Below, in pieces: positions 1-59,685 of a stretch of 64,000 nucleotides of DNA. This stretch comes from Pelagomonas calceolata (Eukaryota; Sar; Pelagophyceae; Pelagomonadales; Pelagomonadaceae). A program made the position numbers and the translations under genes. Under the pieces are notes generated by a model. It did no database searches and was not told the DNA's origin. It saw only the letters and a program-made list of their open reading frames with translations. The stretch is taken from contig CAKKNE010000004.1 in assembly GCA_918797485.1 (NCBI GenBank), positions 3,348,001 through 3,412,000 of the forward strand, given 5' to 3'. Numbering within the stretch: position 1 is the first letter of the stretch; every line of letters begins with the position of its first letter.

Positions 1-54
1 CACGCGGGACCAGTACCGCGCGGCGCCGGCGACGCCCGCGAACTGCACCTTCAT
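1..54 (-). CDS. 5' end of a minus-strand gene leaving the window
   Basis: An ATG on the minus strand at base 54 opens a frame of 18 codons (MKVQFAGVAGAARYWSRV) that runs off the left edge without a stop. Nothing in so short a piece identifies a function. The main support is positional: an oriented promoter-like palindrome at 231-254 points toward this start from 177 bp away, the same arrangement as at about fifteen other genes here. An accidental short open frame is the alternative. Confidence 0.4.
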   Translation of the reverse strand, partial: MKVQFAGVAGAARYWSRV

Positions 55-410
55 GGTCCGGCGCCACCGCGGGCAGGAGCCGTCGCTCCGGCACTTTACG
101 TCGTTTCCGTGATGAGTATCTATCACGTCTCGGCGGCAGCGGCGACTCGTCGTAAGTAGCTTTTATGTCTGTCCGCATATCGACAGCGTTCCACTAGCGG
201 TACATTAGTCGGAGCCGGTTTGGACGCTTGTTAGCGTACATAAAGACACTAGCAAAAATCTGTGAGAGCAAAAACAGGCTCTGTGGTCTGTTTCGCGTGC
301 GCAGGCGCGCTTTGATACTTCAGCCTTACGGAGACTGTTGCTGCCGTATTTGTCTCGCTGCCCACAACTTCCCCGGCTCCAATCGGTGCGGTACTCGCGA
401 CAATAAGCCA
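55..410. other. Intergenic, divergent promoter region
   Basis: Lies between a probable minus-strand start at 54 and the plus-strand PAP/fibrillin start at 411. It holds one degenerate copy of the dispersed palindrome (231-254). The plus reading frame is open upstream of 411 back to 228, but that stretch is Cys/Arg-rich and would bury the hydrophobic leader, so I treat it as leader sequence rather than coding. Confidence 0.6.
231..254 (-). promoter_or_regulatory. Dispersed GCTAG palindrome, copy 1
   Basis: Reads TTAGCGTACATAAAGACACT then AGC, the minus orientation of the family consensus with a decayed distal arm. It is 177 bp upstream of the minus-strand ATG at 54 and points toward it. Function is inferred only from recurrence and placement. 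Confidence 0.55.
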
Positions 411-1577
411 ATGGCACGGCTGCTCCTCACATGGCTCGCCTGTCACGCGACCGCCCTGGTCCCACCGACAAAGCACAAACAGCGCCTGACCGTCGCGCAC
501 AACGTCGCCTCGGCGAAGCCGAACGCCAGGAACGCAAAATATGTGGACCAGCTCTTAGACGTGGCGGCGGGAACCGATCGGGGCGTCAGGGCCAAGGAGG
601 GCACGCGCAACATCATCGACGGGCTGATCGCGCGGCTTGAGCGCTCGTACAAGGGCACGGACGCGTCCGAGACGCCCGAGTGGCTGTATAGGGACAGCGA
701 GGTCGTCTACGTCGGCCAGCGGTCGAGCAAGCGCGCGAATGCCGCGGGCGGAAGATTTCGGGGCCGCGTCGGGCGGCTGCTCTTCCGGACGACGGCATTG
801 TACCAGCACATCCAGCGGGACGGCGAAAGTCTAAGAGCGGTCAACGCGAACCGCTTCCGCTTCCTCGGCTTGCTGCCGGGCTGCGCCGTGCTCCGGGGCT
901 CCGCCGAGAAGGAGAATGACTTGGAAGCGCTCTCGGCGAAGTTCGACCGGAAACTCTCCGAGAACACGCTCCGCGCGTCGTTCGAGCGGCCGAAAATCGC
1001 CTTCGGGCCTCTGGTCTGTGAGGCCGGGCCCGCGTCGGTGGTGCGCCTCGACACGACGTACCTCGACGACCGCGTTTGGCCACCGTGTGGAACACAAGTT
1101 GGTGATCGCGATCGAGGAGGAGCACTCTTTTGTGGGATGTTGACCTCGCAAGGACTGATATGCGACAGGAAGCTCCGTACGGGGCACACCGAGATCGAGA
1201 GACGCGACAGACACGCGCGCGCCTCCCGCCCCCGCTCCTGCCGATCTTGTTACGCGCAGGTCCGCATCTCGCGCGGCGGCTCGTCGGGCACGCCGTTCGT
1301 CTTCCGCGCGTGTTCGGACACGGACACGCGCAAGGACGCCTGGAAGCGCGTCGCCGAGGCAACGCCGGTCTCCGCGAAAACGGCGGGTGTCGGCGTCGGC
1401 GCGCTGGCCGCTGTTGCAGCGGGCACCGCCGCGCGAATCGGGACCAAGAACATCGCATTTGCGCCTGCTGTGGTCCTCGCCCTTGCTTCCGCCAAGCTCT
1501 TGACGAGCACTGGAGGAATAGTAGTCACACGCGACCCCGCGGTGGCGTCGTACAAGAATGCGGGCAAGGGGGGCTGA
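411..1577 (+). CDS. PAP/fibrillin-like plastid lipid-associated protein
   Basis: Two exons, 411-1073 and 1260-1577, give 326 residues. The start at 411 begins with a short hydrophobic leader (MARLLLTWLACHATALVPP) that suits entry to a secondary plastid through the ER. Residues about 190-260 resemble the end of a plastid lipid-associated protein (PAP/fibrillin) domain: FERPKIAFGPL, then VVRLDTTYLDDRVRISRGG and TPFVF, the usual 'DTTYLD-x-RIGRG-FVF' signature, which is restored only when the intron is removed. A hydrophobic stretch near residues 280-310 may anchor the protein. Family members coat plastoglobules or act on thylakoid lipids; the exact role here is unknown. The intron is 186 nt with no stop, so the unspliced frame is open throughout. 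Confidence 0.72.
   Translation: MARLLLTWLACHATALVPPTKHKQRLTVAHNVASAKPNARNAKYVDQLLDVAAGTDRGVRAKEGTRNIIDGLIARLERSYKGTDASETPEWLYRDSEVVYVGQRSSKRANAAGGRFRGRVGRLLFRTTALYQHIQRDGESLRAVNANRFRFLGLLPGCAVLRGSAEKENDLEALSAKFDRKLSENTLRASFERPKIAFGPLVCEAGPASVVRLDTTYLDDRVWPPCGTQVGDRDRGGALFCGMLTSQGLICDRKLRTGHTEIERRDRHARASRPRSCRSCYAQVRISRGGSSGTPFVFRACSDTDTRKDAWKRVAEATPVSAKTAGVGVGALAAVAAGTAARIGTKNIAFAPAVVLALASAKLLTSTGGIVVTRDPAVASYKNAGKGG
1074..1259 (+). mobile_element. Intron of the PAP gene, probable decayed introner
   Basis: GT-AG intron of 186 nt, phase 0, defined because splicing restores the PAP signature. Nine bases in, it reads CCGTGTGGAACACAA, a match to the introner terminus CTGTGTGGAAATCAA. The 3' end (ACGCGCAG) has lost most of the matching inverted arm. 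No clear target duplication remains (left GTTTGGCC, right GTCCGCAT). Confidence 0.5.
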
Positions 1578-1690
1578 GTACTACACATTTGTCTGCTAAC
1601 CATCGAGTGTGCGCGATTCCACGAGCCGACGACGGACTTGACGACGGCGACGTACGTACAAAAAAAGACATGTGCCAGTGGCGGGTACAT

Positions 1691-2659
1691 TCACACATCC
1701 TTACACAGTTCCATCTGCTGCTCGATGGCCGCGGCGAGCGGCGCGACAGCCTCGCCGGGCAGGTCGTGCTTCGAGCAAAACGCCACCGCCACCGCCTCGG
1801 GCACGTCGCCCTCGCAGACGCGGATCGTGCCGACGCCGTCGACCGTCAGCTCGAAGAGCACGCACGAGGTCTCGCCGCGGTCCCCGGTGAGCGCCACGTG
1901 CGTTTCGGGAAAGAGCGGCACCGTCGACCGCGCGTTCTTCTCGTCGCGAAAAGATGGCCGCGCGAACGCGCAAAAAAACACGAGGCGGTCCTCGTCGGAC
2001 GCGTTGGCTAGTCCTCGATGATCAATGCGGTAGTCAAAGAGGAGCGCATCGCCCGCGTCGCACATCACGGCGACGCCGTCCTGCCTCAGGCGCTTCACGT
2101 CATTGGCTCGAGGGCGGTGACTGCCGAGCCGGAACTCCGTCGGGCCGTTCGCGGCGGTGAGTGGCTGCAGCGGCACGAATACCGTCAACGCGTTCGGCGA
2201 TTCGCTGTTCTCATGATCCCCGTCTTTATGCCAACGTTGGTGGTCTCCACCAGCGTTCGCTCTGGCCACCATGACGCCGCTGTACAATATGGCGCTGCCG
2301 CCGAGCGCCTCCGTTGCGACGTCGAGCACAGCAGTTCTCGTTTCGCGCAGGAGCGCGTCGAACGGCGCGGCGTCGCTGTTGAACCGCAGGTCGACGCGGC
2401 CGCCGTCGCGTTTGAGGTATTCGGCGAAATCTCGGCGATGGAGGCGCACCGCTGCGTGATGCGCTCCCGGCGCGGATGCGTCGAGGTCTCGTATGTTGTT
2501 TGTGATCGCTGCGTCTGAGCAAGCGAGTGCTGCTGCAGCCGCAGCTCTGCAGATAGCAATCGTTTCTTCCTTTACGGCTCCGGGCACGACTGCTACGCCT
2601 TGCTCAAGGAAGATGGAGGCTGCAGCCTGCTGGGTGGTGCCAATCAAGCTCGCAGCCAT
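1691..2659 (-). CDS. Phytanoyl-CoA dioxygenase-like 2OG-Fe(II) oxygenase
   Basis: 322 residues, single exon. The iron-binding facial triad of the PhyH family is visible: H144 and D146 in RWHKDGDH, and the distal H214 in YRIDHRGLAN, followed by R225, which would bind 2-oxoglutarate. The double-stranded beta-helix core spans about residues 120-235 (ILYSGVMVARAN, LTVFVPLQPL, GDALLFDYRIDHRG, LVFFCAFARP). The last ~75 residues form an extra region of unknown role. Members hydroxylate small molecules or lipids; the substrate cannot be told from sequence. There is no targeting peptide. Its 3' end lies 110 bp from the stop of the PAP gene, tail to tail. Confidence 0.85.
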   Translation of the reverse strand: MAASLIGTTQQAAASIFLEQGVAVVPGAVKEETIAICRAAAAAALACSDAAITNNIRDLDASAPGAHHAAVRLHRRDFAEYLKRDGGRVDLRFNSDAAPFDALLRETRTAVLDVATEALGGSAILYSGVMVARANAGGDHQRWHKDGDHENSESPNALTVFVPLQPLTAANGPTEFRLGSHRPRANDVKRLRQDGVAVMCDAGDALLFDYRIDHRGLANASDEDRLVFFCAFARPSFRDEKNARSTVPLFPETHVALTGDRGETSCVLFELTVDGVGTIRVCEGDVPEAVAVAFCSKHDLPGEAVAPLAAAIEQQMELCKDV

Positions 2660-3092
2660 ACTGGCGCAGCGATGGTGAACTTGCAGAGCTGTGCACGAGG
2701 GTCAATTTACCGGGCCGCACAGTGCGGGAGCTAAGCCTAGCTGTTTTTGGGCGCTGCAATTCGATGCAAACCCGACCAGTGGCGACGGACTTGCGCCTTT
2801 GCATCGGCGCGCGAGCAGCTACACTGTCGGCTGCGCCTCAGCATCGTGTGGCACAGCATCGCCGCATCGCTGCGCTGCGACTTTCGGCATCGCTGCGGGC
2901 ATCGCTGCGGCCAGTACCGATATTGCACTCGCTGCACACTGCTGCACCGCTGCGCAAACCGCTGCGCGAGCGCCGCGTCGAGGACTAAGCGCCGCACGGC
3001 GTCGCAGCGCTGCCACCTCATCGCTGTCGCATCGCTGGCGGACCGACAACGGCAACACATTGCATCACAGCACACTCACATAGTCTGACGCG
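2660..3092. repeat. Intergenic with degenerate CATCGCTGCG repeats
   Basis: Divergent promoter region between the PhyH-like gene and the Lys-rich gene. From about 2857 to 3045 it carries many variants of CATCGCTGCG/CGCTGCGC in loose tandem. Several short frames here on both strands are artefacts of this repeat. No copy of the dispersed palindrome is present. Confidence 0.6.
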
Positions 3093-3644: not shown

Positions 3645-3660
3645 TCCTATAACCCCGAAG

Positions 3661-4509: not shown

Positions 4510-4717
4510 GGTGGCGCGTTGTAGCGCGCGCGTAAGAGCTGTAGCTTTTTGCTTGCAATAGGTGCTGCACTCCTGTGCTAGCTAGAGCTGGGCAAGGATT
4601 GAGCAGCGAACCAACGAATCGATTCGTGGCGCGTTTCGCACGGATTTCTAGCAGATTCGCGAGGAGGCAGGCGTTCACAGTGCCTTAACTCGTATTGCAA
4701 TGGGCTTGGCTTTGCTT

Positions 4718-4739
4718 GCTAGTGTCTCAGGCCGCTAGC
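4718..4739 (+). promoter_or_regulatory. Dispersed GCTAG palindrome, copy 2
   Basis: GCTAGTGTCTCAGG then CCGCTAGC: both arms are intact but two bases of the centre are missing. It lies 261 bp upstream of the GPKOW start and points toward it. Confidence 0.65.
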
Positions 4740-4830
4740 TCGCCCCCACGCCTCAAACTTCGAGTCCAGGGTTCCTTAAAGAACAGAAAGTTGCACAGGG
4801 GCGGGGGCATCGCCCGCTTGCTATATGTGT

Positions 4831-4854
4831 CTAGTGTCTTTACAGGCCGCTAGC
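4831..4854 (+). promoter_or_regulatory. Dispersed GCTAG palindrome, copy 3
   Basis: CTAGTGTCTTTACAGG then CCGCTAGC, with one extra T in the centre. It is 146 bp upstream of the GPKOW start and about 90 bp after copy 2, the only gene here with two good copies. Confidence 0.7.
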
Positions 4855-4999
4855 ATCGATGCCGGCGCGCAGCGGGCGATATAGCGCCGCCGCGACGTAT
4901 AGAGCTAGGCATACATCGCCAGCAGCAGCGCATAGATCATAGCAGTCATCCAACATCGTAAACAGAGGGCTGGGCCGTGACTAGCTGCAGCTAAACAGC

Positions 5000-6328: not shown

Positions 6329-6421
6329 TTTTGTTGTTGTTTTTTTTCTCTTCTCTCCGCGGCGACGGCGTCGTCGTACGCATTCCCGTTCCCGTGCTAG
6401 GGCTGTAGGCGGGCTTCTGAG

Positions 6422-6487
6422 GCTTTTTTAGGCTGAGGCTGAGGCTAGTTACGTCGCAGGGCTCCCCGTACCCCTCCCGCTCCCCCC
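6422..6487 (+). repeat. 3'-flanking repeat, copy A
   Basis: Begins with a T-run and AGGCTGAGGC, then GGCTAGTTACGTCGCAGGG and a C-rich block (CCCCGTACCCCTCCCGCTCC). It is matched on the minus strand at 59695-59753. It lies 93 bp after the GPKOW stop, in gene orientation. Confidence 0.7.
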
Positions 6488-7575
6488 GGGCCCACCCGTC
6501 CGGCTGGACTAGGACGCAAGGGCTGAGTCACAGGGACTCGCACGCCCCCCCTCTTTTGGGACGACCCCCGTCAGGGTGTGGAAACTGGCCACTGGCTCCT
6601 CTTTTATGACGAGCCGGAAATCAAGTGGTGAGAGAGATGCCCTCGCACACCAGGCCGAGCAATCCTGAAGCGGGGAGCGAGAGCTCCGACCCGCCCAGAC
6701 GGCCCTTGACAATAACTCGTCGGAACGGAACTAATGGGTTCAATGGATGCCCCAGCGATTCGGAGGGCCTGCGAAAGCTCGGCCGGCGCGGCCAAGGTTA
6801 CGGGGGGCGGCATGCCGCCGCCCCCAACGCCTCCCAGGTCGAGACCAGCTCCGCTCCGTAGGGTCGGTCCGGTCGCAGGCAGATGAGGCTCGCCGTCATG
6901 CCGGCGGCAGAACTTCAGGAAACGGGCCGGATACCACCGAACGTGCACCACTCGATGCCCGAGGATGGGCGCCGTCCGTGTTCCGGGCTCGACCCGCCAA
7001 TAAAAGAAAGTGGGCGCGCCATGCCGGCGACGCCCGGAAAGAAAGATCGGTTGACCTGCGCGTGGGGCCTTCAACCCAAAGGGCGGAAAGACGCGACGCG
7101 AGAAGGCCAGGATGGTGGAAGTCGCCGACGCCGCGATCATTTGACGACCGCGAGCGACGGGACCTACCCCGCGAGCGTCGCCGAGAACTCGATGCCCGAG
7201 GGGGCGCGGCCGCGGGGCAGCCCAAAAAAGTAAGCAACAGAGCGTGAACAAGATGAGACATCGCCGGCGAGCCCGGCCGCGCCGGTCCGCCCGCGCGACC
7301 GACCACTCGACCGCCACGATTGACTTGACCGGCGTCGGCGCGAACGCGAGTTACCCCTGCGGGAGGTCCGCCGCAATGGACCCGCGGACTGGTGCGCGAC
7401 AATCGCGCGCAGAAGCGGCGGAATCGAGTCGGCGCTTTGATCATCAAGCCAGGCACCGAGCGGGTTTTTCGTGCGGGTCCCTGGGCCCAAATCGTTTCCC
7501 GCTCGTCTGGGTTTTGGAGCGCGAGACCTCGACATCGTACCCGTCGGCCCCGCCGTAGAATTCTGAGGTTTTATT

Positions 7576-7599
7576 GCTAGTGTCTTACGGGCCGCTAGC
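7576..7599 (+). promoter_or_regulatory. Dispersed GCTAG palindrome, copy 4
   Basis: GCTAGTGTCTTACGGG then CCGCTAGC, a near-consensus 24-mer flanked by TT and AA so that the arms extend to TTGCTAG/CTAGCAA. It is 143 bp upstream of the favoured macrodomain start at 7742. Confidence 0.75.
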
Positions 7600-7741
7600 A
7601 ACTATCTGCGCGCGCGAGGCGCGCTCACAGAGCTGCGATACAGTTTAATTGAGGCCATTAAACGGCGTCTCGCAGCGCTTGCTGCCCGCGCGAAACGACG
7701 TGACAACGCGCACCCACGTCTACTACCCACAACCCAACCCT

Positions 7742-8602: not shown

Positions 8603-9323
8603 GGTGCCCGCGTCGCCTCGACGGCGCGAGGGTGACGCCATCGCCGCGACAGCTCTCTTCGCCTCGACGCTACGGTGTGCCCGGTGATGTGTAATAGTAT
8701 CGTCCGTCGAGTTATCAAGTACGGGTTTGGCTACTAGCTTTTTTACGATCGAAACAAGCTCAAAGCCAGCACCAAAACGCAAATTTCAGGGTCCCCCCCC
8801 TCCGGCGCCGGCATCCTCGCCCGTTCGCGGGGCGGGCGCGCGGCCGTCTTTGGGCCGTGGAGCCGGTCCCCGGCGCCTGTCGGTCGTGCTTTGGGGAATA
8901 ATCTATCGCTTTTCGCAGTGGGGCTTGAGGCGCTTAATGTGGCGGTGGTGGATGGTGGTGTTGCATCGAAGCATTGGAAATCGCTCGTGCGCCGGCGTCT
9001 GCACCCTTATTTATACCCCAAGGGCGTGCGTTACACTTTGCATACCCTCCAGCACTGCGGGCGCGAGCGTTGATGGCGCGCGTCGCCTTGCTGGCGCAAA
9101 AGTGTCACTATGGTTTGGGCAAGCATAAAACGTCCCGCGGCGACGCGGCGCGGCGAACTCGTCGCCCTAGGAGGGCACCCCCGCACGGCCCACGCGGGCG
9201 GGACTCAGAGAGCGAGAACGTTACGGTAGTACACACACTGCAAACACCAAGGGCGCGCCGTGCTCGCGCCGACGGCGCCCGCGCCTGCCTCCGCTCAACG
9301 AGTTTCCGCGCAGGCCTGCCAAC
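8603..9323. other. Intergenic; possible short ORF 8891-9073
   Basis: A 720-bp gap. The plus frame 8891-9073 (60 residues, starting MGNNLSLFAVGLEALN and ending LHTLQHCGRER) has ordinary amino-acid composition and could be a small gene or the end of a frame-broken one. The overlapping frame 8727-9128 looks less natural. I see no family, repeat or palindrome copy here. Confidence 0.35.
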
Positions 9324-9730: not shown

Positions 9731-11389
9731 TTACTCGGCGACCGCCACCTTCGCCTCGGGCGCCCCAGCAGCTTTCGACGCTTGGGCCGCCCGGTCCGCC
9801 TCCTCAGCTAAAGCTTTCTCCCCCTCCTCCCTAGACAAAAGCCCGCAGTCCGCAATCTCCACCGCGTATGAAGACGGCGCGTCCTTGTCGTCGACGTCCA
9901 AGGAAGCCACCCTACCAACGAATTCCAGCCCCGACACGACCTCGCCGAAGACCACGTAGGAATCATTACAATGCGTCGCCTCGGCACAGGTAATAAAAAA
10001 CTGGGAATGGTTGCAGTCCTTGCCGCGGTTCGCCATCGCCAGCCGCCCGGGCTTGTCGAACTTGAGCTTGAAGTGCTCATCGGCGAAAGTTCGCCCATAG
10101 ATCGATTCTCCGGAAGATCCATCTCGTCGGTGCACGTCACCGCCCTGAATCATGAAGTCCTTGGCTATTCTATGGATGGGCGTGCCCTTGTAGTGCAACG
10201 CACTGCCTAAGTCCCTTCCTTTCTTGCCGCCTTTACATAGCGCTAAAAAGTTCTTCGATGTCCGAGGGCACGCGTCGGCGAAGACCCGGAGCACAATGGT
10301 ACCATCGAACGGTTGCTCTTCGCTACTACCGCGGGGCGTCGCCCTGATCCTCAAATAAGCGTAGGGGTTCTCAGTAGTAGAGGGAGGCATGGAACTCGGT
10401 TTATCCTTGAACAATGAGGCCTTGTCAAAAGTGCCTCCGAAGGCTTTCTTCTGTTGCTTCGACTGTTCGGCGAATTTCTTCCGTAAATCGCTCCAGGCGC
10501 TTCGCACGGCCTTGTTTTTGGGGTCCAGCGTGTTCGCTTGTTTTAGATCTTCCCTAGCCTCCTCCAGCAGCCCCATGTGCGTCCGCGCCACGCCTCGCCT
10601 GTATAAACCTTTGACAGAGTCCGGGACACATTTTATAGCTCTTGTAGCATAAGCACAGGCCCCGGGCCAGTCCTTCTCGTTCAACGCGCACTGCGACGCG
10701 TTCAGATGCGCACTGAGGTAGATATTCCCCACATCAGTAGGCATCGCCTTGTTCTCGCGCGAGTAGTAGGCCGCGTCGCAGTAGAAGATGGCCTCGGCGA
10801 ATAGAGAACGCGCTTCCGCCCAGTCCTTCTTGCCATAAGCATCCAAACCTGCTTGCTTCTGCTTGGAAGCTTCCGCGAGTTTTTCTTCCGAAGTCATCAT
10901 ATTTAACTCTTTTTTTTTCTCGCCACAACTGAGTAACTCCACATCAAAATGTAAGGTAGCATCGGGCGGTATGGTGGGCGGGTGGCCCTCCTTGCCGTAG
11001 GCCCACTCCGACTCGATTTCTAACAAAGCTCGCTCCCCAACGGCTATCTTCTCAAAAGCCGCGTCCCAGCCCGTGATCACCGACCCGGCGCCCAGCTCGA
11101 ACGTAAAGGGCTGGCCCCTTTTGCGAGAGCAGTCGAACGGTTCCGTACTGCCAGGTAACGTGCCCGTGTAGTGGACGCAGACCTCCATGCCCGGCGCGGC
11201 GTAGACCTTGGGGTTCGTGCCTTCTTTTGTAATGCATTTCCTTACGCCCTGCTGGAGCTCCTCCCAGTCTGGTGTATTTGTTGGTGGGCCGGCTTCGTCG
11301 GACATGTTTGTAGCGCTCGCGGCGGTGGCGTGAGAGTGGTGTCTGAGGGTCGCGGCTGTCAAACTCCGCGGCGACGGCTCGGTTTGCAC
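9731..11389 (-). CDS. Dual-family immunophilin: FKBP-TPR-cyclophilin
   Basis: 552 residues; an internal Met (MSDEAGPP, codon 29) is an alternative start. Domain order: FKBP peptidyl-prolyl isomerase (about 40-156), TPR helices (about 166-312) and cyclophilin isomerase (about 345-522). The FKBP pocket residues are present (HYTG, PFDCS, VITGW, AYGKEG, LHFDVEL). In the cyclophilin domain the catalytic Arg and FMIQGGD are kept, but the Trp that binds cyclosporin is His (AEATHCNDSYVVFG), as in Cyp40-type proteins. This order is that of the 'FCBP' class reported from Toxoplasma. The TPR block suggests Hsp90/Hsp70 docking. A minus-oriented palindrome lies 111 bp upstream. Confidence 0.9.
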   Translation of the reverse strand: MQTEPSPRSLTAATLRHHSHATAASATNMSDEAGPPTNTPDWEELQQGVRKCITKEGTNPKVYAAPGMEVCVHYTGTLPGSTEPFDCSRKRGQPFTFELGAGSVITGWDAAFEKIAVGERALLEIESEWAYGKEGHPPTIPPDATLHFDVELLSCGEKKKELNMMTSEEKLAEASKQKQAGLDAYGKKDWAEARSLFAEAIFYCDAAYYSRENKAMPTDVGNIYLSAHLNASQCALNEKDWPGACAYATRAIKCVPDSVKGLYRRGVARTHMGLLEEAREDLKQANTLDPKNKAVRSAWSDLRKKFAEQSKQQKKAFGGTFDKASLFKDKPSSMPPSTTENPYAYLRIRATPRGSSEEQPFDGTIVLRVFADACPRTSKNFLALCKGGKKGRDLGSALHYKGTPIHRIAKDFMIQGGDVHRRDGSSGESIYGRTFADEHFKLKFDKPGRLAMANRGKDCNHSQFFITCAEATHCNDSYVVFGEVVSGLEFVGRVASLDVDDKDAPSSYAVEIADCGLLSREEGEKALAEEADRAAQASKAAGAPEAKVAVAE

Positions 11390-11824
11390 TCAAATTTGCA
11401 AGGGACCTAGTTCGCTGGTACGGCTAGCATTCGCGGCGATAGCTTCGTCTGCGATGATAGATGGGCTGTGCGAGCTCGCAAAGTTTGCGATGTCTTCGAG
11501 CCAGCGTCCGTATCACACTAGCAAACCGCCAGGTTTTGAACGACCGGCGCGCCTGCTGAGGATGACTCGTATCCCTCCTTCGCGCGTAACAGGTGGCCCA
11601 GAAGCTTGAGTTAGGAGTGACCGCGGTCAATTTTGTGCCGGTCGCATTGGCGTTTGGGCGTCCGTGAGGACCCTGTGGCGGCCAGATTTGGCTGCGAGGC
11701 CGCAGGACTCATTTTTTTGGTCACAGCACCGCAACGGTTGCCGCGCGTTCGGTTCTACGACGTGTTTGCACGCATTCTGGTGAGGGCACCAAACTAGACA
11801 AAAAGGCGCCGCCGCCGCGCACCG
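11390..11824. other. Divergent promoter region
   Basis: 435 bp between the immunophilin and the NEK-like kinase. One degenerate minus-oriented palindrome copy (11500-11522) serves the immunophilin side. The half nearest the kinase shows no repeat or frame that I can support. Confidence 0.6.
11500..11522 (-). promoter_or_regulatory. Dispersed GCTAG palindrome, copy 5 (degenerate)
   Basis: GCCAGCGTCCGTATCACACT then AGC, a 23-base relative of the minus-oriented consensus, followed by AAA as in other copies. It is 111 bp upstream of the immunophilin start and oriented toward it. Confidence 0.5.
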
Positions 11825-14331: not shown

Positions 14332-15981
14332 CTACTTTCGCGCCCCGAAGACGAAGGGCTCCTCTTGTCCCGAGGCGTTTGCGCCAAAGGCGAAGGGCTT
14401 GTCCGAGTGCGTTTCCGGCGTGACGGCGGGCGGTTCCGCGACGCTTGCGCCGAAGACGAAGGGCTTGGCCGGCGAGACTTCCACGACAGGACTCGGGGCC
14501 CGAAATGCGAGCCGCCCCGCCGCCGCCGCAGCGAGCCCGTCGCGCTCCACCGCGAGCCTGTCACGCTCTGCCGCGACCGCCGCGAAGGCTGCGTTGGCGG
14601 CCGCAAGCGCGTCTGCTTTCATGGCCGCAGGCCCGTAATAGTCGGCCACAGGCCCGCAGTAGTCCTCGTCGTCCGGGTCGGCCTTCCGCTGGTAGTCCTC
14701 CACATCATCAAGATTTTCCACCACCACGGGCGGCGACTGGAGCGGCTTGCCAGCCATAAGTGCCCGGAGATCGACCATGAAGGCCTCCATCGCTGCCTTA
14801 TCGTCGGGAATGTCGGTAACCCGCATCTCGTGCGCGGCGAGCTCGAGATCCTTTACCTGGGAGGGCGACATAGATGGAACGGCGTCGAGTATGTATTCTC
14901 GGAGATATTCGTTATGGTTTCTCCCGAGGATGAAACCAACAAACTCAAGCAGAGAAGGGGCGAGACAGGGATGGGTGGCTAATACGTCGTTGTGCCTGGC
15001 AGATTTGTAAGTCCCATAGTGGAATTTGAGGCGGCGTAGATTTGGCAAATCATTGATGAAGTCCCATGCACCCCAGCCATCTAGAGTTCCTTCAAGCTCC
15101 AGGCGCACGAGAGACGACGCGCAGGCGTACTCCGTAGGCAGCGCGGTTAAGTTATTGTTTCCGTTCAGCGTAAGCACCTCGAGCATGGGCGGCCCACGCG
15201 CGAGCACGGCTGTTTCCTCCAGCTGTGGCATGTAGTCGGCGCGGAGAACGCGCAGCGTGCATAACGGGACGAGGGCCTCCGGCAGCTCGACGAGCGATTG
15301 ACCCGACAAGTCGAGCTCGACGAGAGCCGGTTGATTCCACAGCCGGAGCCACGAGCTGTCGTCGGAGGGCCAAGGATTTGGGGGGACACACGCCAGTTTT
15401 GAGCACAAGAGCCGACCCTCGCGCGCCAGGACGTCAGCATCCACGCCGAGACCAACTACTTTTAGCGGCGTAAGAGTGGATGCGACTTCGAGCCGCATGG
15501 CCGAACGGCGCGCAACCGCTGCGAACACGAGAGACGAGAGTCTCCACGCCTTGCGCATGCGCACCACCGATAGTGCGGGCGCGTTATCAATGAAAAGTGA
15601 GAGTCCCTGCCAGTATCGGGTGATGGTTGTGCGAGAGAAGCCTCGCGTATCAGAATCGAGCAGCACGAGCTCGTTCGTCCAACGCAACGGCGCGTACGCG
15701 CGGGGCGGGACCGTCGAGAGCATGCGCACCGCGTCCGCTTGCGAGAGCAGCGTGACCCGCCACACCGTCGGCGCGTGCTCACCAGTTGTCACGAGTGTTT
15801 CGCGCGCGTACTTCTCGCTCGCCGCCAGCGCGACTCGTTGCGAACCATCGAGGTAGCGCTGCGCCAGCGCGACGAAAACGCAGGGCGGTAGCTTTTTAAA
15901 GGGAGAAAGTTTTTGCTCATCCTGGCAGGTGAGAGAGCCGAGCTCGTTTTGGAGCGCGTCAACTGCTTCGTTCGCAGCCAT
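14332..15981 (-). CDS. LRR-containing protein with C-terminal PF-x-FGA repeats
   Basis: 549 residues. The N-terminal half is helical and of unknown type (PPCVFVALAQRYLDGSQRVAL). Leucine-rich repeats occupy about residues 205-330 (PALVELDLSGQSLVELPEAL, CTLRVLRADYMPQLEE, MLEVLTLNGNNNLTALPTEY, LVRLELEGTLDGWG). After an acidic linker and a short coiled coil (FAAVAAERDRLAVERDGLAA) the tail has three spaced units: KPFVFGA, KPFAFGA and EPFVFGA. These resemble FG motifs of nucleoporins, but three are far fewer than in a true FG protein. No catalytic domain is visible. A minus-oriented palindrome lies 190 bp upstream. Confidence 0.7.
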   Translation of the reverse strand: MAANEAVDALQNELGSLTCQDEQKLSPFKKLPPCVFVALAQRYLDGSQRVALAASEKYARETLVTTGEHAPTVWRVTLLSQADAVRMLSTVPPRAYAPLRWTNELVLLDSDTRGFSRTTITRYWQGLSLFIDNAPALSVVRMRKAWRLSSLVFAAVARRSAMRLEVASTLTPLKVVGLGVDADVLAREGRLLCSKLACVPPNPWPSDDSSWLRLWNQPALVELDLSGQSLVELPEALVPLCTLRVLRADYMPQLEETAVLARGPPMLEVLTLNGNNNLTALPTEYACASSLVRLELEGTLDGWGAWDFINDLPNLRRLKFHYGTYKSARHNDVLATHPCLAPSLLEFVGFILGRNHNEYLREYILDAVPSMSPSQVKDLELAAHEMRVTDIPDDKAAMEAFMVDLRALMAGKPLQSPPVVVENLDDVEDYQRKADPDDEDYCGPVADYYGPAAMKADALAAANAAFAAVAAERDRLAVERDGLAAAAAGRLAFRAPSPVVEVSPAKPFVFGASVAEPPAVTPETHSDKPFAFGANASGQEEPFVFGARK

Positions 15982-16170: not shown

Positions 16171-16194
16171 GCTAGCGTCCTGTAAGCCACTAGC
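16171..16194 (-). promoter_or_regulatory. Dispersed GCTAG palindrome, copy 6
   Basis: GCTAGCGTCCTGTAAG then CCACTAGC, minus orientation, followed by AAG. It lies 190 bp upstream of the LRR gene start and points toward it; on its other side it is only 5 bp from the stop of the next minus-strand gene. Confidence 0.7.
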
Positions 16195-16198
16195 AAGA

Positions 16199-17095
16199 TC
16201 ACACACACGTATTTAGATAACTAGCGCCGCCGTTCTTCGCGTCGCAGAACGCCGCGGCCGCCTCCCAGTCGACGACGGTTGCCCGGCAGCCCGCGGCGGC
16301 CGCGTCGACGGACGAGCCGGCCGCGACGAACGCCGCGCCGCGCGGGAGTTGGACCGCGTCGCTGTCGACCCAATACACACAGGTCTCGCACTCGTCGAGG
16401 CACCGGTCGAACATGGCGCGGTCGTCGCCGCGCGTCGCCCGCCGGAAGAGGACGTCGTCGTAGCCTTCCTCGCGCCGCGCGACGTCTTCGGGGACAACTG
16501 CCGATTCGACGCGCACGAGGCGCGCGAGTGGCTCCGTCGGGTCGGCCCGCCGCGCCGCCTCGCCGCGGATGCCGCTCGTGAAAATTTCGCACATGTCCTC
16601 GAACACGTCGTCGTCGTCCTCGATCGCGCAGAGCACGTCGACGCAACCGCGCCGCCGCGCCGTCAGGAGGCGCCGTGCCCGCCCAAGTGCCCAATCAAGG
16701 GACGGCTCGCTCGACTCCGGCGCCGTCGCGCGGACGAGGATGTCGTCGTTCAGGCGCGCGACTCTGTGGGCGCGGGCGTTGCTGCGCGCCCACGCATTGC
16801 CCGCGGCCGCTTCCAGCGCCGCTCGGCGCGAGTCTACTTCTCGTCTTGCCGTGTCGTCGGCAACGAAAAGCTCGATGGTCGGATGCGCGAGCGGTGCTGG
16901 CTCGTGGAGCGTCGGGTCGACGACGAATGCAGTGGCGTTAGTGAGCTTCATCAATCTCGTCGCCAACGTGCCATCTGGGTCGACCGCTCTCGGTGGAGCT
17001 GTGAGCAGCACTGCATTGTTGCTGCGCACCATGAGCTCAGGTGGTGTGAGGGCCGCTGCGCTGCAGAGGCATGGAATAAGGAATAGCATCAGCAC
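16199..17095 (-). CDS. Secreted or organellar protein of unknown function
   Basis: 298 residues. A signal peptide is clear (MLMLFLIPCLCSAAALTPPE). The mature part is mixed alpha/beta in look (SNNAVLLTAPP, TAFVVDPTLHEPAP, TIELFVADD) with eight cysteines in the second half (RRGCVDVLCAIEDDDDVFED, MCEIF, RCLDECETCVYWVDSDA, GCRATV, AFCDAK). I recognise no family. The CLDECETCVYW cluster could bind metal or form disulfides. The end (SYLNTCV) lies immediately beside the upstream palindrome of the LRR gene; its own palindrome is 108 bp upstream of its start. Confidence 0.65.
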   Translation of the reverse strand: MLMLFLIPCLCSAAALTPPELMVRSNNAVLLTAPPRAVDPDGTLATRLMKLTNATAFVVDPTLHEPAPLAHPTIELFVADDTARREVDSRRAALEAAAGNAWARSNARAHRVARLNDDILVRATAPESSEPSLDWALGRARRLLTARRRGCVDVLCAIEDDDDVFEDMCEIFTSGIRGEAARRADPTEPLARLVRVESAVVPEDVARREEGYDDVLFRRATRGDDRAMFDRCLDECETCVYWVDSDAVQLPRGAAFVAAGSSVDAAAAGCRATVVDWEAAAAFCDAKNGGASYLNTCV

Positions 17096-17202: not shown

Positions 17203-17224
17203 GCTAGCGCTGTAAGACACTAGC
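17203..17224 (-). promoter_or_regulatory. Dispersed GCTAG palindrome, copy 7
   Basis: GCTAGCGCTGTAAG then ACACTAGC, minus orientation, two bases short in the centre. It is 108 bp upstream of the secreted-unknown gene (minus) and 131 bp upstream of the TylF-like gene (plus); orientation assigns it to the former. Confidence 0.65.
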
Positions 17225-19007: not shown

Positions 19008-19109
19008 TTTTTTTCTTCGCGATGGCGTGCCCCTCTACGCCGTCGAGGCGACGCGCGGTCGCGGCGATGGCGTGCTGGTGCCGTATTTATCTTAGCTTAA
19101 GTATAGTTG

Positions 19110-19245
19110 TGTGTCTTACTCTTACTCCGTTACTCCGCGACGCGAGCCCGCGCTCCGCCGTGCGCGTGTGGCGTAATCGACTCCCAAATCGCCGCAGAAT
19201 TAGGTAGCTCGTCAGCCTGCACGCGAGCCGCGGCTTCGGCGGACC
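19110..19245 (-). pseudogene. Decayed copy of the 3' end of the Ldh2 gene
   Basis: Read on the minus strand, this stretch repeats the last ~37 codons of the intact dehydrogenase at 27.1 kb: EAAARVQADELP and AIWESIT are recovered, followed by a scrambled end and VAE-stop. Base identity is high in blocks (GCCGCGGCTTCGGCGG, TCGACTCCCA, GGTAGCTCGTC), broken by several indels. The two copies lie in the same orientation, about 8 kb apart, on either side of the transposon-like element. This is what remains of a duplicated or displaced gene end; it cannot encode the enzyme. Confidence 0.8.
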
Positions 19246-28611: not shown

Positions 28612-28635
28612 TCTAGTGTGTAACAGGACGCTAGC
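28612..28635 (+). promoter_or_regulatory. Dispersed GCTAG palindrome, copy 8
   Basis: TCTAGTGTGTAACAGG then ACGCTAGC, plus orientation. It lies 109 bp upstream of the PhyH-like gene at 28744 and 104 bp upstream of Ldh2; orientation assigns it to the PhyH-like gene. Confidence 0.65.
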
Positions 28636-29831: not shown

Positions 29832-29855
29832 GCTAGTGCCTTACAGGCCGCTAGC
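29832..29855 (+). promoter_or_regulatory. Dispersed GCTAG palindrome, copy 9
   Basis: GCTAGTGCCTTACAGG then CCGCTAGC, one mismatch to the consensus, preceded by TTTT. It lies 171 bp upstream of the phosphatase start at 30026. Confidence 0.75.
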
Positions 29856-30025
29856 CTCGTATGGGATTAATTATTGACGTGTGGCGTTTTGTCCCCGAAC
29901 TCGGTGTAGGCGCAGCACCTGACTCACACAGCTCGCCACATATCTCAATTTACCCGCCCTCAGCGCTACGCCGAACCTCGCCCCGATCTGTTGGGCGCCG
30001 ACGGCGTTTGACGCAGATTTGGTCC

Positions 30026-31211: not shown

Positions 31212-31234
31212 GCTAGTGTCTTACTACCGCTAGC
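31212..31234 (+). promoter_or_regulatory. Dispersed GCTAG palindrome, copy 10
   Basis: GCTAGTGTCTTACTA then CCGCTAGC, one base short of 24, preceded by TTT. It lies 217 bp upstream of the OSCA/CSC1-like start. Confidence 0.7.
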
Positions 31235-39412: not shown

Positions 39413-39537
39413 GTGTGCTCTCAATCTTGCAGCTCTTGCTCGCACGCGTCGACAGCGCGTCCTGGGCAAAGCTTGCGCAGGACAGAATGATCTCTTTGCA
39501 ACTGTTGGCGACAAAACCATGCACGGCCGCACAAGCA

Positions 39538-39559
39538 GCTAGCGTCGCAAGCCTCTAGC
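39538..39559 (-). promoter_or_regulatory. Dispersed GCTAG palindrome, copy 11 (degenerate)
   Basis: GCTAGCGTCGCAAG then CCTCTAGC, followed by AAA; minus orientation with a changed centre. It is 126 bp upstream of the monooxygenase start at 39412. Confidence 0.55.
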
Positions 39560-41961: not shown

Positions 41962-41985
41962 GCTAGTGTCTTACTGGACGCTAGC
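41962..41985 (+). promoter_or_regulatory. Dispersed GCTAG palindrome, copy 12
   Basis: GCTAGTGTCTTACTGG then ACGCTAGC, near consensus, plus orientation. It is 136 bp upstream of the gene at 42121. Confidence 0.75.
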
Positions 41986-43011: not shown

Positions 43012-43409
43012 GAGACGATATGTTTTCGCTAGTGTGTCGATGTTACGGTGCTAGGACTAGTGGGCGGAGCCCCTGGGGGGGAGACACCGCGCGTCGCCGA
43101 TTCAAGCAGAACGCCTCGGCAAACCCCGCTAGTGTCTTACAGTATGCTAGCTAGTCCAAAACGCCGTGCCATATTTTTCGCGCTGGCAGTCGCTACCTCA
43201 GCACTGCAAGTAAGAGGAATAGGTAATATTAGAGCTAAGGTACCAAGGCACGCAGCCACGCGCTTGGCATTGCTCTGGGTTAGTTGTGCAGCTTGCCAGG
43301 TCATCCTGTTCGTGGGGGCACGGGCAGGTCGGTCGTGAAGCCCGACCGGAGCGGCCGCGCGAAAAAGCTTGTGCTTGTTGCTTTAATAAACTGCTGACAC
43401 ATATTTGCC
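43012..43409. other. Intergenic, promoter region of CtpA
   Basis: 398 bp holding a doubtful palindrome relative at 43028-43054 (GCTAGTGTGT, 10 bases, GGTGCTAG) and a good copy at 43128-43151. No coding frame is convincing. Confidence 0.55.
43128..43151 (+). promoter_or_regulatory. Dispersed GCTAG palindrome, copy 13
   Basis: GCTAGTGTCTTACAGT then ATGCTAGC, plus orientation, then CTAG again. It lies 259 bp upstream of the CtpA start. Confidence 0.7.
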
Positions 43410-45420: not shown

Positions 45421-46234
45421 TCATTTCCCTCCCAGGTGCTTTGCCGCTCGAGCCCTTTGCGTGCTGTGGCCGGTGCGCATCCACGCGCAGCCGCCGTGGA
45501 GGGGCGAGCACCCGCTCCGGGGCTTGTACTCGCCGATGGACCCCCGCTCGAACTGCGCGTCCGGGAGAACGGCGGGACAGGACGGGTCGAACATGCAGGG
45601 CATCGGCCGGCCGTCGAAGGGGTTGATCGCTTTCTTCGTCTGCGGGCACGCGAGGACGTCGCGAATGTCGGCACGACCCGTCGCGCGGACTGCGGCCACA
45701 TTAAAAAAGGTCGAGCCCCGCGTCGGCACGAGGAACGCGCAGCGCGAGAAGAGGTGGTTCTCCACGAGCGCCTCGAGCGCCGGGTCGTCGACGCGGGCCT
45801 CGACGATCGACACGTTGTCCGCCTTCGCGAGGGCGATGAGATCTCGCTTCAACCACGCCGAGTGACCATCGGAACCAATGAGTAGACCGCCGTCGTGCCG
45901 CGCGACCGCTTCTCTCAGGCGGGGCCACACCTGTGTGGAAATCAACCAGTGCGTCGGGTGCCCGACAATTCTTCACTAAGTCATTTCTCGGCGATGACGC
46001 GGCCTCCTGGCTCAATCGAGCGGCGAGGAACCGGCATCGCCACGCCATCGAGCAAGCGTCGCATCGATGGCGTGGAGGACGACGCGACGATTCAACGCGA
46101 ACGCGCCGTAAAAGTTTGATTTCCACACAGGGCCCCACATCGCCGGCGCGCCAGTCCGGGCCCTTCTTGCGCAGGTGCACGCCGACGCCGCAGCCCTCCG
46201 ACCGCGCGAGCGCCGCATCGACCGCCTTCCTCAC
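45421..46234 (-). CDS. Putative glycosyltransferase (fucosyltransferase-like), N-terminally short
   Basis: Exons 46234-46139 and 45930-45421 give 201 residues. Joined sequence: SEGCGVGVHLRKKGPDWRAG-D/VWPRLREAV, then GGLLIGSDGHSAWLKRDLIA, VENHLFSRCAFLVPTRGSTF, FNVAAVRATG. The 'VGVHLR...K' strand, 'IGSD' and 'S-CAFLVPTRGSTF' patterns resemble nucleotide-sugar-binding halves of alpha-1,6/O-fucosyltransferases, though weakly. The C terminus is Cys-rich (MPCMFDPSC; GCSPLHGGCAW). The protein starts abruptly, with no leader or acceptor domain, only 8 bp from a divergent gene that also starts abruptly, so the 5' part may be missing. Confidence 0.5.
45931..46138 (-). mobile_element. Long introner as intron of the putative glycosyltransferase
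   Basis: 208-nt GT-AG intron, phase 0, the most complete copy here. The left duplication GTGGGGCC matches the exon bases after it GTGTGGCC (7 of 8). Ends are CTGTGTGGAAATCAAACTTT and GGTTGATTTCCACACAG. The interior has the full hairpin CCACGCCATCGA, 12 bases, TCGATGGCGTGG. It is the inverse-orientation relative of the 186-nt Ldh2 intron 1, so the same element splices in both directions. Confidence 0.93.
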
Positions 46235-50582: not shown

Positions 50583-51182
50583 CTAGGGGTTCGGCAGGCG
50601 CGGGCCGTCCCAGCCGCGCCTCGCCTCTGCTAGCCGCGACCGGCGCGCCATGTTTCTGGTATGGGCTGCCATTCTCTCTTTCTTGCGCTGGTAGTGCTGG
50701 CGCCGGATGTTCTTGAAGCGCCGGCGCTCGCGCGCCAGGTACTTGGACCGCCTCGGGCCCGCGCGCTCGGGGTAAGACGCCTCTGCCTCGGCCAGCAACT
50801 CTTCCCAGTTGCCGGGCCGCTCGCCGGCATATTGTAAATCGCCGGCGGGCGTCGCGCGCTGGTTCCCTCGGTCCTCCAGGCGCGAGCGCTCGAAGAAGTC
50901 GTCCCCGAGCGCGTCGAGGCTCCGGTTCTGGTCGTCGTCATCTCCTGATGTGGTGGCGAACGTTGCGCACAGCTGCGGGCGTGCCAGAGGCGGCCGCGCG
51001 GCGACCAATCTGAGCGATGCTGCGCGGCGCGCGATGGGTGCGGCTGCACCCTGAGGCCCTGCGGCGGCCAGATAGCCCCGCGCCGCCGCGCGGCGAGTCA
51101 GCAGTGCTGCACCATTTGGGCTAGCGGTGCCAAAACAGAGCGGGCGCGCGCGCAGCGCTCTCCGCGCGACTGCTGCGATCAT
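50583..51182 (-). CDS. Basic protein with mitochondrial-type leader, unknown
   Basis: 199 residues. The first ~75 are Ala/Arg-rich without acids (MIAAVARRALRARPLCFGTA; YLAAAGPQGAAAPIARRAAS), a typical matrix-targeting sequence. An acidic middle (TSGDDDDQNRSLDALGDDFF) precedes a very basic, helical C terminus (SKYLARERRRFKNIRRQHYQ, RKKERMAAHTRNMARRSRLA). This layout fits a small mitoribosomal or RNA-binding protein, but I see no family signature. A minus-oriented palindrome lies only 69 bp upstream, the shortest spacing in the window. Confidence 0.65.
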   Translation of the reverse strand: MIAAVARRALRARPLCFGTASPNGAALLTRRAAARGYLAAAGPQGAAAPIARRAASLRLVAARPPLARPQLCATFATTSGDDDDQNRSLDALGDDFFERSRLEDRGNQRATPAGDLQYAGERPGNWEELLAEAEASYPERAGPRRSKYLARERRRFKNIRRQHYQRKKERMAAHTRNMARRSRLAEARRGWDGPRLPNP

Positions 51183-51250: not shown

Positions 51251-51274
51251 GCTAGCGTACAGTAAGACACTAGG
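51251..51274 (-). promoter_or_regulatory. Dispersed GCTAG palindrome, copy 14
   Basis: GCTAGCGTACAGTAAG then ACACTAGG, minus orientation, last base changed. It is 69 bp from the minus-strand start at 51182 and 187 bp from the UNC-45-like start at 51461; orientation favours the former. Confidence 0.7.
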
Positions 51275-55986: not shown

Positions 55987-56476
55987 CGCTTTTTGGTTGC
56001 AGCAATGTGCTGCTCGGCGCTATGCAACAAAAGCTAGTCAGCGAAGCAATGCAGCGCGTTTCAGAGCGAATAATGCAAACTGTCTCGCAGTGTCGTTTGC
56101 AATGCCGCGTGTGTGGAGCACACCAGCCGCAAGTATTCCTAGTGCCTTACAGGCCGCTAGCTAATTCCACGCAACCCAGTCGCAATCCTATTGTGTGGTT
56201 GCTACGGCCGTAGGTCCAACGCAGGACGTCAACAGAGCGCATCCGCGCAGCCCTCTCTTGCTCTTTTCAGTGCGCGCACGTTGCTGCAGCAAGCGCGGCC
56301 GAGCAATCAAGTTCCCAGCCATCCGAGGAAACCGCTGCGCACGCGCGGAGCGATCATCAACCACGCGCCTACGCCAGTCGTAGTCGTAGCGTAGCATCCG
56401 CGCCACACCAACGCGCCGCAGCGATCATCAACACGCCAGGATCACCGCGTAGCGTAGACGCGCCCCACCACCAACC
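55987..56476. other. Divergent promoter region
   Basis: 490 bp between AspH-like and MARVEL-like genes. It holds the palindrome copy at 56138-56161 and a direct repeat GCGATCATCAAC followed by ACGC at 56348 and 56420 close to the MARVEL-like start. No supported frame. Confidence 0.55.
56138..56161 (+). promoter_or_regulatory. Dispersed GCTAG palindrome, copy 15
   Basis: CCTAGTGCCTTACAGG then CCGCTAGC, plus orientation, identical to copy 9 in all but one base. It lies 316 bp upstream of the MARVEL-like start at 56477 (longest spacing) and 152 bp from the AspH-like start. Confidence 0.7.
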
Positions 56477-57115: not shown

Positions 57116-57276
57116 GCAGCTTCTTAACTAGTATGAACAGACAGAGAGCGAGGGCAGCAGGGCCTCTGGCGGAAGGAGCGGGTGCGGGTTTCCTCGGCCC
57201 GGCGTGACCTCCCCGGGAGGTCACAACGGGCGTCATAGCGCGGCTTCCGAGGCGGCATACGGGAATTTGAGTGCCG

Positions 57277-57993: not shown

Positions 57994-58585
57994 TCTTGTG
58001 TGTGTAGACCCCGGTCGCGCGCGCGCCGCGCGCGACCGCCTGTTTTTAGATTACGGTCGAGCAGGAAGGACGCTCGACCCGACGCGCTACGAGCGCACGT
58101 CGCCTGTTTTTAGATTAAGGTCGAGCAGGAAGGTCGCTCGACCGCGCTATTTTTCGCCTGCTTTGGCTAATATGCTGCGGACCCCCACCGCTCAAAGGGG
58201 GCAGCCGCGTCGCCGCACCCACAGCAGCGATGGACAGGGGCTCGTGACGCGCGGCCCGCACGCTGCAGCGCGTCTCGCGCGTCGCGGCCACGGCGTCACA
58301 ATCACAAGACGGCCGGCTCCCAAAATGTTGAAGGCAACAAAGGGGGACAAAGGGGGGTGATCTGCGCGCGCGGGGGCGGACCGCTCGCGCCGGTCATCGG
58401 TGTGGGCTGCGTTGTTGGAAGGCTCTACGCGGAACTCGGGGTGGTGTTAGGAAAGGCGCGGCTCTAGAGCGCGGCCCGCGCCCGTCACGCGACCACCAGG
58501 CCTACCACCTACCACCATTCGACCACCCGCCGATGACCCGGCGTAACTGTGCCATCATAGTAGGTACGTTACAAACTGGCGTTAG
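57994..58585. other. Intergenic with a 43-bp direct repeat
   Basis: 592 bp between a minus-strand start and the stop of the next minus-strand gene. It carries the hairpin-containing direct repeat at 58037-58143. The plus frame through 58360 (RGQPRRRTHSSDGQG) is Arg-rich and unlikely to be coding. GGGGGCA/AAAGGGGG runs lie near 58190 and 58340. Confidence 0.55.
58037..58143. repeat. Two 43-bp direct repeats with internal hairpin
   Basis: Copies at 58037-58079 and 58101-58143, period 64 bp, differ at two positions. Each runs CGCCTGTTTTTAGATTA then a hairpin GGTCGAGC ... GCTCGACC around AGGAAGGN. The pair lies 45-150 bp upstream of the type I membrane protein start. Confidence 0.8.
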
Positions 58586-59277
58586 TTAGCCCGACCGCCG
58601 CGGGTCGGGCCGCCCGCGGACCGCGAACGAGACGTTGTTCTCGCGGTAGTCGTGGCCCGGCGGCGCCGACGCGACGACGCGCCGCGCGCCGGCGCGTTCG
58701 TTTTCCTCCGGGCCCCAGAGGAAGTCCAGCGTCGCCGCCGCCGCGTCGGCAGCATCGTCATCAGCGCCGGCCTCGAGCGTCGCCGCGCCGAGCGCCCGCA
58801 CGTCGAGGCGCGCCTCCTCCATCGTGTAGCTCGTAACAATAATTGGAATGGAGGTCCGCAGCAGCCCCATCAACGTCGGCCGCCACGAGTCGTAGCCCCA
58901 GAAGCCTGGGTGGAAGGCTATGACCACATCCGGCGCGGCCCGCCACACGCGCCTGTTGTCGACGTCGTACGCGCCCGCGTCGTGCGTCACGCGCACGCGG
59001 CCCCGGTACGCCCGCGCGGGGCGGTCGCGCACGTCGGGCCCCACGACCAAAACGTCGAGCGTCTGGACCTTGAGCGCGTCCGCGAGCAGGATCCACAGAT
59101 CATCATTTCCCTCAACGTGGGGCTGGCCGCCGATGGCATGCACCGTCAAGACCTTCTTTTTGAATCCGAGCTTCCTGATCGACGCCGCGGCCGTCGCGAC
59201 GAAGGACGGGTCCACCTTCTGCTTTGCGACGGCGCGCATGACGAGCTGCGCGAAGGACGGTTCGTCGTTGCTCGCCA
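58586..59277 (-). CDS. Mss51/MYND-type C-terminal domain protein
   Basis: 230 residues from ATG 59277; the frame is open further upstream, but that part is Arg-rich and out of character. The sequence KKVLTVHAIGGQPHVEGNDD, LWILLADALKVQTLDVLVVG, PDVRDRP, APDVVIAFHPGFWGYDSWRP and IPIIVTSYTMEEARLD matches the C-terminal domain of Mss51 and related MYND zinc-finger proteins ('HVVGA...L..LP...L.v..iGP', 'FNPGF' and 'P.i.TsY'). The MYND zinc finger itself is absent. In yeast Mss51 controls COX1 translation; in algae the domain's role is unknown. A small open frame ends 3 bp before this start. Confidence 0.7.
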
Positions 59278-59280
59278 TGG

Positions 59281-59448
59281 CTACGTCTGCCGGAACGCCG
59301 CGCCAACACCAATAACGCACGCCAAAAAGAGCGCCGCCGGGCCCGCGTGCCGCCCGCGCATCTGTAGCGCGGCCGCCGCGCCGCCGACCATGAAACCCGT
59401 CACTCCTCCGATGGCGCCCGCCTTCGCTTTGCGCTCCCACACGCCCAT
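59281..59448 (-). CDS. Small glycine-rich two-span membrane protein (ROMO1/Mgr2-like?)
   Basis: 55 residues from Met 59448: MGVWERKAKAGAIGGVTGFM, VGGAAAALQMRGRHAGPAAL, FLACVIGVGAAFRQT. Two hydrophobic, Gly-spaced segments are joined by an MRGR turn. This is similar in layout to ROMO1/Mgr2, small inner-membrane proteins of the mitochondrial TIM23 complex, which also have an MRGR loop, but it is shorter. Its stop is 3 bp before the Mss51-like ATG on the same strand. It may be a separate gene, an upstream frame, or one half of a two-cistron message. Confidence 0.45.
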   Translation of the reverse strand: MGVWERKAKAGAIGGVTGFMVGGAAAALQMRGRHAGPAALFLACVIGVGAAFRQT

Positions 59449-59661
59449 TTGCTTTTGCTTTTGCTTGTGTCTGCCGCTGCAGCCAGCTCCTCGACACTGC
59501 ACAGAGTGGGTGTCTGCGGGCAAGTGGGCAGCAATGCTCGCGCGCTTCAGGCGTCAACAGCTGTGTGTTCGCACGGATCTCAGCGTGGATTATCTGCTTG
59601 AGATCACGCTTGATGAGATCACGCTTGATTACGCAAAAACGCCTGCAACGCAAATCGAGGG

Positions 59662-59685
59662 GCTAGCGTCCAGTAAGACACTAGC
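59662..59685 (-). promoter_or_regulatory. Dispersed GCTAG palindrome, copy 16
   Basis: GCTAGCGTCCAGTAAG then ACACTAGC, the reverse complement of copy 12 exactly. It lies 214 bp upstream of the small ORF at 59448 and 385 bp upstream of the Mss51-like start, which supports transcription starting before the small ORF. Confidence 0.75.

Follow-up and report, generated by a model that had tools for sequence, protein, structure and literature searches.

A short interrupted palindrome recurs between the genes of a 64,000-nucleotide stretch of the Pelagomonas calceolata genome (GenBank assembly GCA_918797485.1, contig CAKKNE010000004.1, forward-strand positions 3,348,001 to 3,412,000; hereafter, the window), which raises the question of what it does there and whether it points toward particular genes. 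A preliminary description of the sequence counted at least 16 copies and took them for an oriented, general promoter or boundary element. We find an element of defined sequence with sharp edges, which lies between genes and upstream of them, has no fixed orientation, and recurs in contigs of the same lineage. In our judgment it is probably a duplex DNA binding site, a putative target in proximal promoters, in either orientation, of one abundant protein that serves genes of unrelated function.

Copies were identified by scoring two boxes, GCTAGTGTCTTAC and CGCTAGC, at 20 positions with 1 to 7 bases allowed between them. All 16 copies reported previously are present, two of them beginning one base earlier than described (230 and 4830), and each matches GCTAGTGTCTTAC-N(2-5)-CGCTAGC at 17 to 20 of the 20 positions. 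The interrupted palindrome is thus as described, except that its length is not a constant 24 bp: the outer length ranges from 22 to 25 bp. First-order Markov control sequences (five of 64 kb, both strands) produced one match at 16 of 20 positions and none at 17 or more, and a fixed 24-mer pattern with up to three mismatches gave 10 matches in the window versus 0.02 expected. Scored with a weight matrix derived from the full set of copies, the 16 window sites reach 21.7 to 36.8 bits, one other site 13.1 bits, and the remainder no more than 7.2 bits; ten simulated sequences contain no site of at least 12 bits. Because the matrix was trained on these very copies, its informative part is the near-empty interval between scores, and the window sites are nearly all-or-none. 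The site at 13.1 bits (27107; 17 of 20 positions), just beside a repeated block, was dropped as a copy. All 13 occurrences of the word GCTAGTG in the window are in upstream gaps, which make up 17% of the sequence, and 11 of them are part of copies. The remaining two, at 192 and 43028, are lone half-sites, each near a full copy.

The window has a GC content of 64%, and its genes are mostly single open reading frames (ORFs), many with eukaryotic domains. Its GC content, its small number of introns, and its introner-like repeats are in keeping with the P. calceolata genome, for which one study gives 63.6% GC, 0.45 introns per gene, and a peak of intron length near 210 bp (PMC9481584). Our gene list, 40 entries assembled by hand, draws on ORFs, coding potential, and Pfam matches rather than on RNA and defines 13 divergent, 12 tandem (one of zero length), and 14 convergent gaps; 25 gaps contain a gene start. 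Fifteen copies could be classed, the copy at 230 being left aside since the gene that it would serve lies off the window. Nine are in divergent gaps (8 of 13 gaps), six are in tandem gaps (6 of 12), and none is in a convergent gap (0 of 14). A copy is present in 14 of 25 start-bearing gaps versus none of the convergent ones (Fisher P = 0.0004 at the level of gaps), but convergent gaps are short; by length alone, their avoidance is weak in the window (P = 0.055), with P = 0.023 when 10 classed copies from related contigs (see below) are added. No copy lies within the 51 kb called as genes, and this avoidance of coding sequence has a P of about 4e-11. The earlier statement that genes and tail-to-tail gaps are free of copies therefore holds. 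The estimate that about half of the promoters are marked is correct when gaps are counted, but a copy on the gene's own strand precedes only 14 of 39 gene starts. Likewise, the distance of about 70 to 320 nt from copy to assumed ATG applies to most copies, the exceptions being 5 nt at 29832 and 17 nt at 39538; in both cases the coding signal begins further in than the first in-frame ATG, which is probably not the true start. The Pfam domains of the genes served are unrelated and reveal no common function, which together with the share of marked gaps supports the original preference for a general element over a regulon. With the copies masked, no second word shared among upstream gaps stood clearly above shuffles, and neither by eye nor by base composition was a fixed downstream partner, such as a TATA box or an initiator (Inr), seen.

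Scanning the contigs of prokaryote genomes with CTAGTGYCTTACNNNNCGCTAGC returned four contigs, from metagenome-assembled genomes (MAGs) labeled Spirochaeta or proteobacterium. Three marine MAGs have element-bearing contigs, MED672, ERR599032_bin.133, and ERR599052_bin.23 (contigs L001 to L004 and L019 to L027), whose run and bin names point to Tara Oceans samples. For several of the MED672 contigs, a eukaryotic origin is plain. The MAGs were searched with four spacer lengths and at most three mismatches, with the same pattern read backwards as a control; 14 copies were found in 10 contigs, and the scoring used for the window recovers the same 14. A further candidate at L024 7954 fell below the cut (16 of 20 positions, a spacer of 1, inside a called gene) and was rejected. 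Clearly eukaryotic domains occur in five contigs (EDR2_C in L019; CNNM, DHHC, and PTPA in L021; importin-type repeats in L022; CLU in L023; PAP_fibrillin in L024); L026 is ambiguous (Sir2). A 62-bp repeat of L020 is also present in the window (93.5%). Intron-end sequences of the window recur in L021 and L024, matching in L024 at 27 of 27 bases and at 50 of 53. Because of these domains and shared sequences, we assign the eukaryote behind the contigs, on sequence grounds, to the lineage of the window. The element thus recurs in contigs of this lineage, and we claim no conservation across species. Viral contigs gave no exact copy under three patterns and no relative in a scan with one window protein, a desaturase; bases 1 to 25000 of the 64,000 in the window had no near match in plasmids. 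Among the 79 genomes of the order of G002, 78 had no match to a 23-mer form with at most one mismatch, the 79th being G002 itself.

Does the element have a direction? Only tandem gaps test this, because a copy in a divergent gap faces a same-strand gene whichever way it is turned. All six tandem copies of the window (7576, 16171, 29832, 31212, 43128, and 59662) are oriented with the downstream gene (two-sided P = 0.03), but only two of seven in the relatives are, L023 2947 and L025 10510, whose flanking genes have no Pfam match on either side. The other five, L020 2198, 4290, and 5352, L021 5363, and L024 2685, are oriented against it. The last of these is in a tandem gap, not in a convergent one as it seemed at first sight, since the neighboring ORF, on the plus strand, codes for a PAP_fibrillin domain. 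Support for the gene at L020 4474-5055 is weak (no Pfam match, under the score cut), and if this gene is discounted, both adjoining copies remain tandem. Four copies (L001 2146, L022 7906, L026 98, and L027 3761) were omitted from the count, their neighboring gene being missing, doubtful, or off the contig. Pooled over all tandem gaps, 8 of 13 copies are oriented with the downstream gene (P = 0.58), or 7 of 11 without the copies that have three mismatches. The direction of the element is therefore not fixed, and the claim that every copy is oriented toward a downstream start, with which the nine divergent copies agree automatically, is not borne out outside the window.

The anatomy of the site was examined in 30 copies, 16 from the window and 14 from the relatives. 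The two boxes together carry about 31 bits and have sharp edges, conservation having dropped almost to background by the second base upstream and the first base downstream. The left-arm CTAG never varies, and 5 of the 30 copies deviate from CGCTAGC in the right arm. The site is asymmetric because arm position 6 is T in 28 of 30 copies, giving a T.G instead of a C.G arm pair, and because TCTTAC is present on one side only. Spacers are 4 nt (18 copies), 2 nt (6), 3 nt (4), or 5 nt (2) long, and TT usually stands just before the left box (22 and 23 of 30 for the two positions). No flank is common to the copies, and some pairs share a few extra bases or a nearby repeat.

These features are consistent with (TT)GCTAGTGTCTTAC-N(2-5)-CGCTAGC being a double-stranded DNA site in proximal promoters. 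We infer that one abundant nuclear protein probably binds it, two recognition modules of which would contact the two CTAG-centered arms and one of which would also read TCTTAC. A flexible link between the modules would tolerate outer lengths of 22 to 25 bp. Binding of the protein would hold the intergenic DNA open and allow transcription to begin to one side or to both, at genes that have no function in common.

Several observations weigh against such a binding site. It does not account for the difference in orientation between the window and the relatives (Fisher P = 0.02), for which we offer no explanation beyond chance. In the four MAG searches the reversed control gave 6 matches versus 14 real ones, and three of those 14 copies have three mismatches (L021 2003, L021 5363, and L023 2947). 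Bacterial genes are present on L001 (MgtE), L025 (radical SAM), and L027 (MgsA), which suggests that the element in these contigs reflects chimeric assemblies or has no explanation. A point in its favor, that in 12 divergent-gap cases the site is nearer the center than expected from uniform placement (P = 0.0012), disappears once 60 nt beside each ATG are excluded (P = 0.14). Finally, the information content exceeds the need of a usual factor site, the entry threshold of 17 of 20 positions inflates the figure, and rigid dimers do not usually tolerate a 3-bp variation in spacing.

Other explanations have to be set against the same data. In the view taken originally, the palindrome is an oriented core-promoter or boundary element whose direction sets the gene that is transcribed. 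The tandem copies of the window and the asymmetry of the sequence, with its T at arm position 6 and one-sided TCTTAC, speak for it; however, contrary copies make up 5 of 7 in the relatives and 5 of 13 overall, and removing the two relatives' copies with three mismatches leaves 1 of 5 in agreement. Among copies with a Pfam-supported gene on both sides, three are oriented with the downstream gene (7576, 29832, and 31212) and two against it (L020 2198 and L021 5363), and the nine window copies in divergent gaps fit either direction, so that we consider a fixed direction unlikely. A placement bound to the upstream gene fares worse. Five of the six window tandem copies (31212, 29832, 43128, 59662, and 16171) lie within about 120 nt of the end of the upstream gene, as a 3'-end or terminator element would, but of the 15 classed copies, 9 occupy divergent gaps, where there are no 3' ends, and the 14 convergent gaps, bounded by 3' ends alone, contain none. 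Placement contradicts this explanation, which we rejected as very improbable.

The palindrome might also act as a structure or spread as a unit. Transcribed into a 5' untranslated region, it could form an RNA stem-loop with a 7-bp stem, whose sixth pair is G.T in 28 of 30 copies, and a loop of variable length. Yet the seven stem pairs show no compensatory change in 30 copies, while pair 1 is broken in 8 of 30 copies, pair 2 in 1, pair 6 in 2, and pair 7 in 3; the element has no set orientation with respect to the gene, and Rfam at gathering scores has no match in the window. There is thus very little chance that the element works as RNA. A short mobile or copied palindrome, like a repetitive extragenic palindromic (REP) sequence or a miniature inverted-repeat transposable element (MITE), might instead spread into open promoter DNA and be co-opted there. 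The very high information content, the near-discrete presence or absence, and the occurrence in both orientations agree with this origin, as do the other dispersed short repeats and introner-like repeats of the window. As single-stranded DNA, the top strand of the consensus folds into a hairpin of -7.5 kcal/mol (z = -5.5; bottom strand, z = -2.1; one consensus), and 2-nt flanks match slightly more often than expected (5 of 30 copies versus 2.0). Nevertheless, no clear target-site duplication of 3 to 8 nt appears with seven symmetric choices of edge, the copies have neither a common flank nor a representative in convergent gaps, and we know of no mobile element of such size in eukaryotes. We regard mobility as distinctly unlikely.

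A protein binding site in proximal promoters remains our preferred reading, and it can be extended. The palindrome might be a general promoter element private to pelagophytes: a signal of two flexibly spaced boxes, worth 31 bits and nearly all-or-none, in more than half of the promoter-bearing gaps. A single factor, possibly a domesticated transposase, would read it through two linked DNA-binding modules, and the lineage would then organize its compact genome around one signal. We put this forward tentatively, as a possibility that is more doubtful than the binding site itself.

The individual copies of the window are placed as follows, beginning with the divergent gaps. The gap at 4510-4999 holds two plus-strand copies, at 4718..4739 (22 bp) and 4830..4854 (25 bp), before the plus-strand gene that starts at 5000 (G-patch/GPKOW). 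Minus-strand copies occur at 11500..11522 (23 bp), before 9731-11305 (minus; FKBP/cyclophilin); at 17203..17224 (22 bp), between 16199-17089 (minus) and a plus-strand gene from 17355 (TylF); at 39538..39559 (22 bp), before 37526-39520 (minus; FAD-binding); and at 51251..51274, between 50583-51182 (minus; no Pfam match) and a plus-strand gene from 51461 (TPR/Arm). Plus-strand copies at 28612..28635, 41962..41985, and 56138..56161 precede plus-strand genes from 28744 (PhyH), 42121 (no Pfam match), and 56477 (CASP/MARVEL), respectively. Four of the tandem copies are on the plus strand: 7576..7599, in the gap 6329-7741 before a macro domain gene from 7742; 29832..29855, before 29861-31150 (plus; dual-specificity phosphatase); 31212..31234 (23 bp), before a gene from 31451 (plus; RSN1 7TM channel); and 43128..43151, before a gene from 43410 (plus; peptidase S41). 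The other two are on the minus strand, at 16171..16194, before 14332-15981 (minus; no Pfam match) and 4 nt off the end of the gene behind, and at 59662..59685, before 58586-59460 (minus; MSS51_C). The unclassed copy at 230..253 (minus), GCTAGTGTCTTTATGTACGCTAAC, has its candidate minus-strand gene outside the window.

Other repeats accompany the element. An introner-like pair, 27941-28124 and 45941-46131, is inverted and 85% identical; the first member sits at a break in the Pfam alignment of an Ldh_2 gene, and related ends are found at 34864-34936 and 37774-37825 as well as in L021 and L024. The repeat at 43041-43102 has relatives at L020 299-360 and 2050-2096 and at L021 5285-5348 (75 to 94% identical). 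All four lie in gene sense about 30 to 57 nt past called gene ends, and this family is possibly a 3'-end element; two of its members end 14 to 25 nt before a palindrome. A second family (6436-6486; 59695-59745, minus strand; L023 2976-2998) is 94% identical within the window, where it lies downstream of gene ends; in two places, L023 and 59662, no more than 10 nt separate it from a palindrome downstream. The repeats 8609-8644 and 19019-19055 are mutual inverted copies, each beginning about 6 to 11 nt past a plus-strand stop. A 103-bp dispersed repeat (19141-19242 and 27122-27216; 82% identical) has GTGTCTTAC 2 and 21 bases ahead of its copies. At 58020-58143, within a noncoding gap, a unit of about 60 bp stands twice in tandem (87% identical).

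If it is true that the signal marks most start-bearing gaps, it would provide a direct handle on promoter definition in a compact stramenopile genome, and could serve both as bait to isolate the factor and as a ready-made promoter part in the transformation of such algae. The replacement of general promoter factors between clades, observed in fungi, would gain a further example. Among the literature matches listed, a scope outside which most subscription journals fall, there is no description of the element or of a pelagophyte promoter motif like it, and the whole 13-mer appears only in a yeast tagging primer. As far as this search shows, the promoter architecture of these ocean picoalgae would seem to be uncharted.

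How does the element compare with known systems? Bacterial REP palindromes resemble it in being short, intergenic, imperfect hairpins with asymmetric edges; unlike them, it belongs to a eukaryotic genome and lies on the promoter side of genes rather than the 3' side. The oomycete elements INR+FPR and DPEP are directional and unrelated to it in sequence. One study describes them as stramenopile promoter elements of a minority of genes, at or near the transcription start (PMC3599244), whereas the present site is mostly about 70 to 320 nt from the ATG. The human M4/THAP11 motif, reportedly conserved and present in hundreds of promoters, has the consensus ACTAYRNNNCCCR (PMC5006282), which is unrelated to ours. 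Closer in form is the vertebrate CGCG element TCTCGCGAGA, palindromic, promoter-associated, and able to activate transcription in both directions (PMC6192621). It is 10 bp long and symmetric, whereas the present element has 22 to 25 bp, quasi-symmetric arms, and an asymmetric center. Like the sites of the yeast general regulatory factors (Abf1, Reb1, Rap1, and Cbf1), our element occurs in proximal promoters of genes of mixed function. The yeast sites are orientation-independent, and their motifs are unrelated in sequence to the one described here. A clade-private site would be expected, because general regulatory factors, which contribute to nucleosome-free regions, have been swapped between fungal clades, as one study reports (PMC2897762). 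Unlike the yeast sites, the present element carries about 31 bits and has variable spacing. The yeast sites and the CGCG element may therefore be regarded as functional analogues, and we claim membership in neither class.

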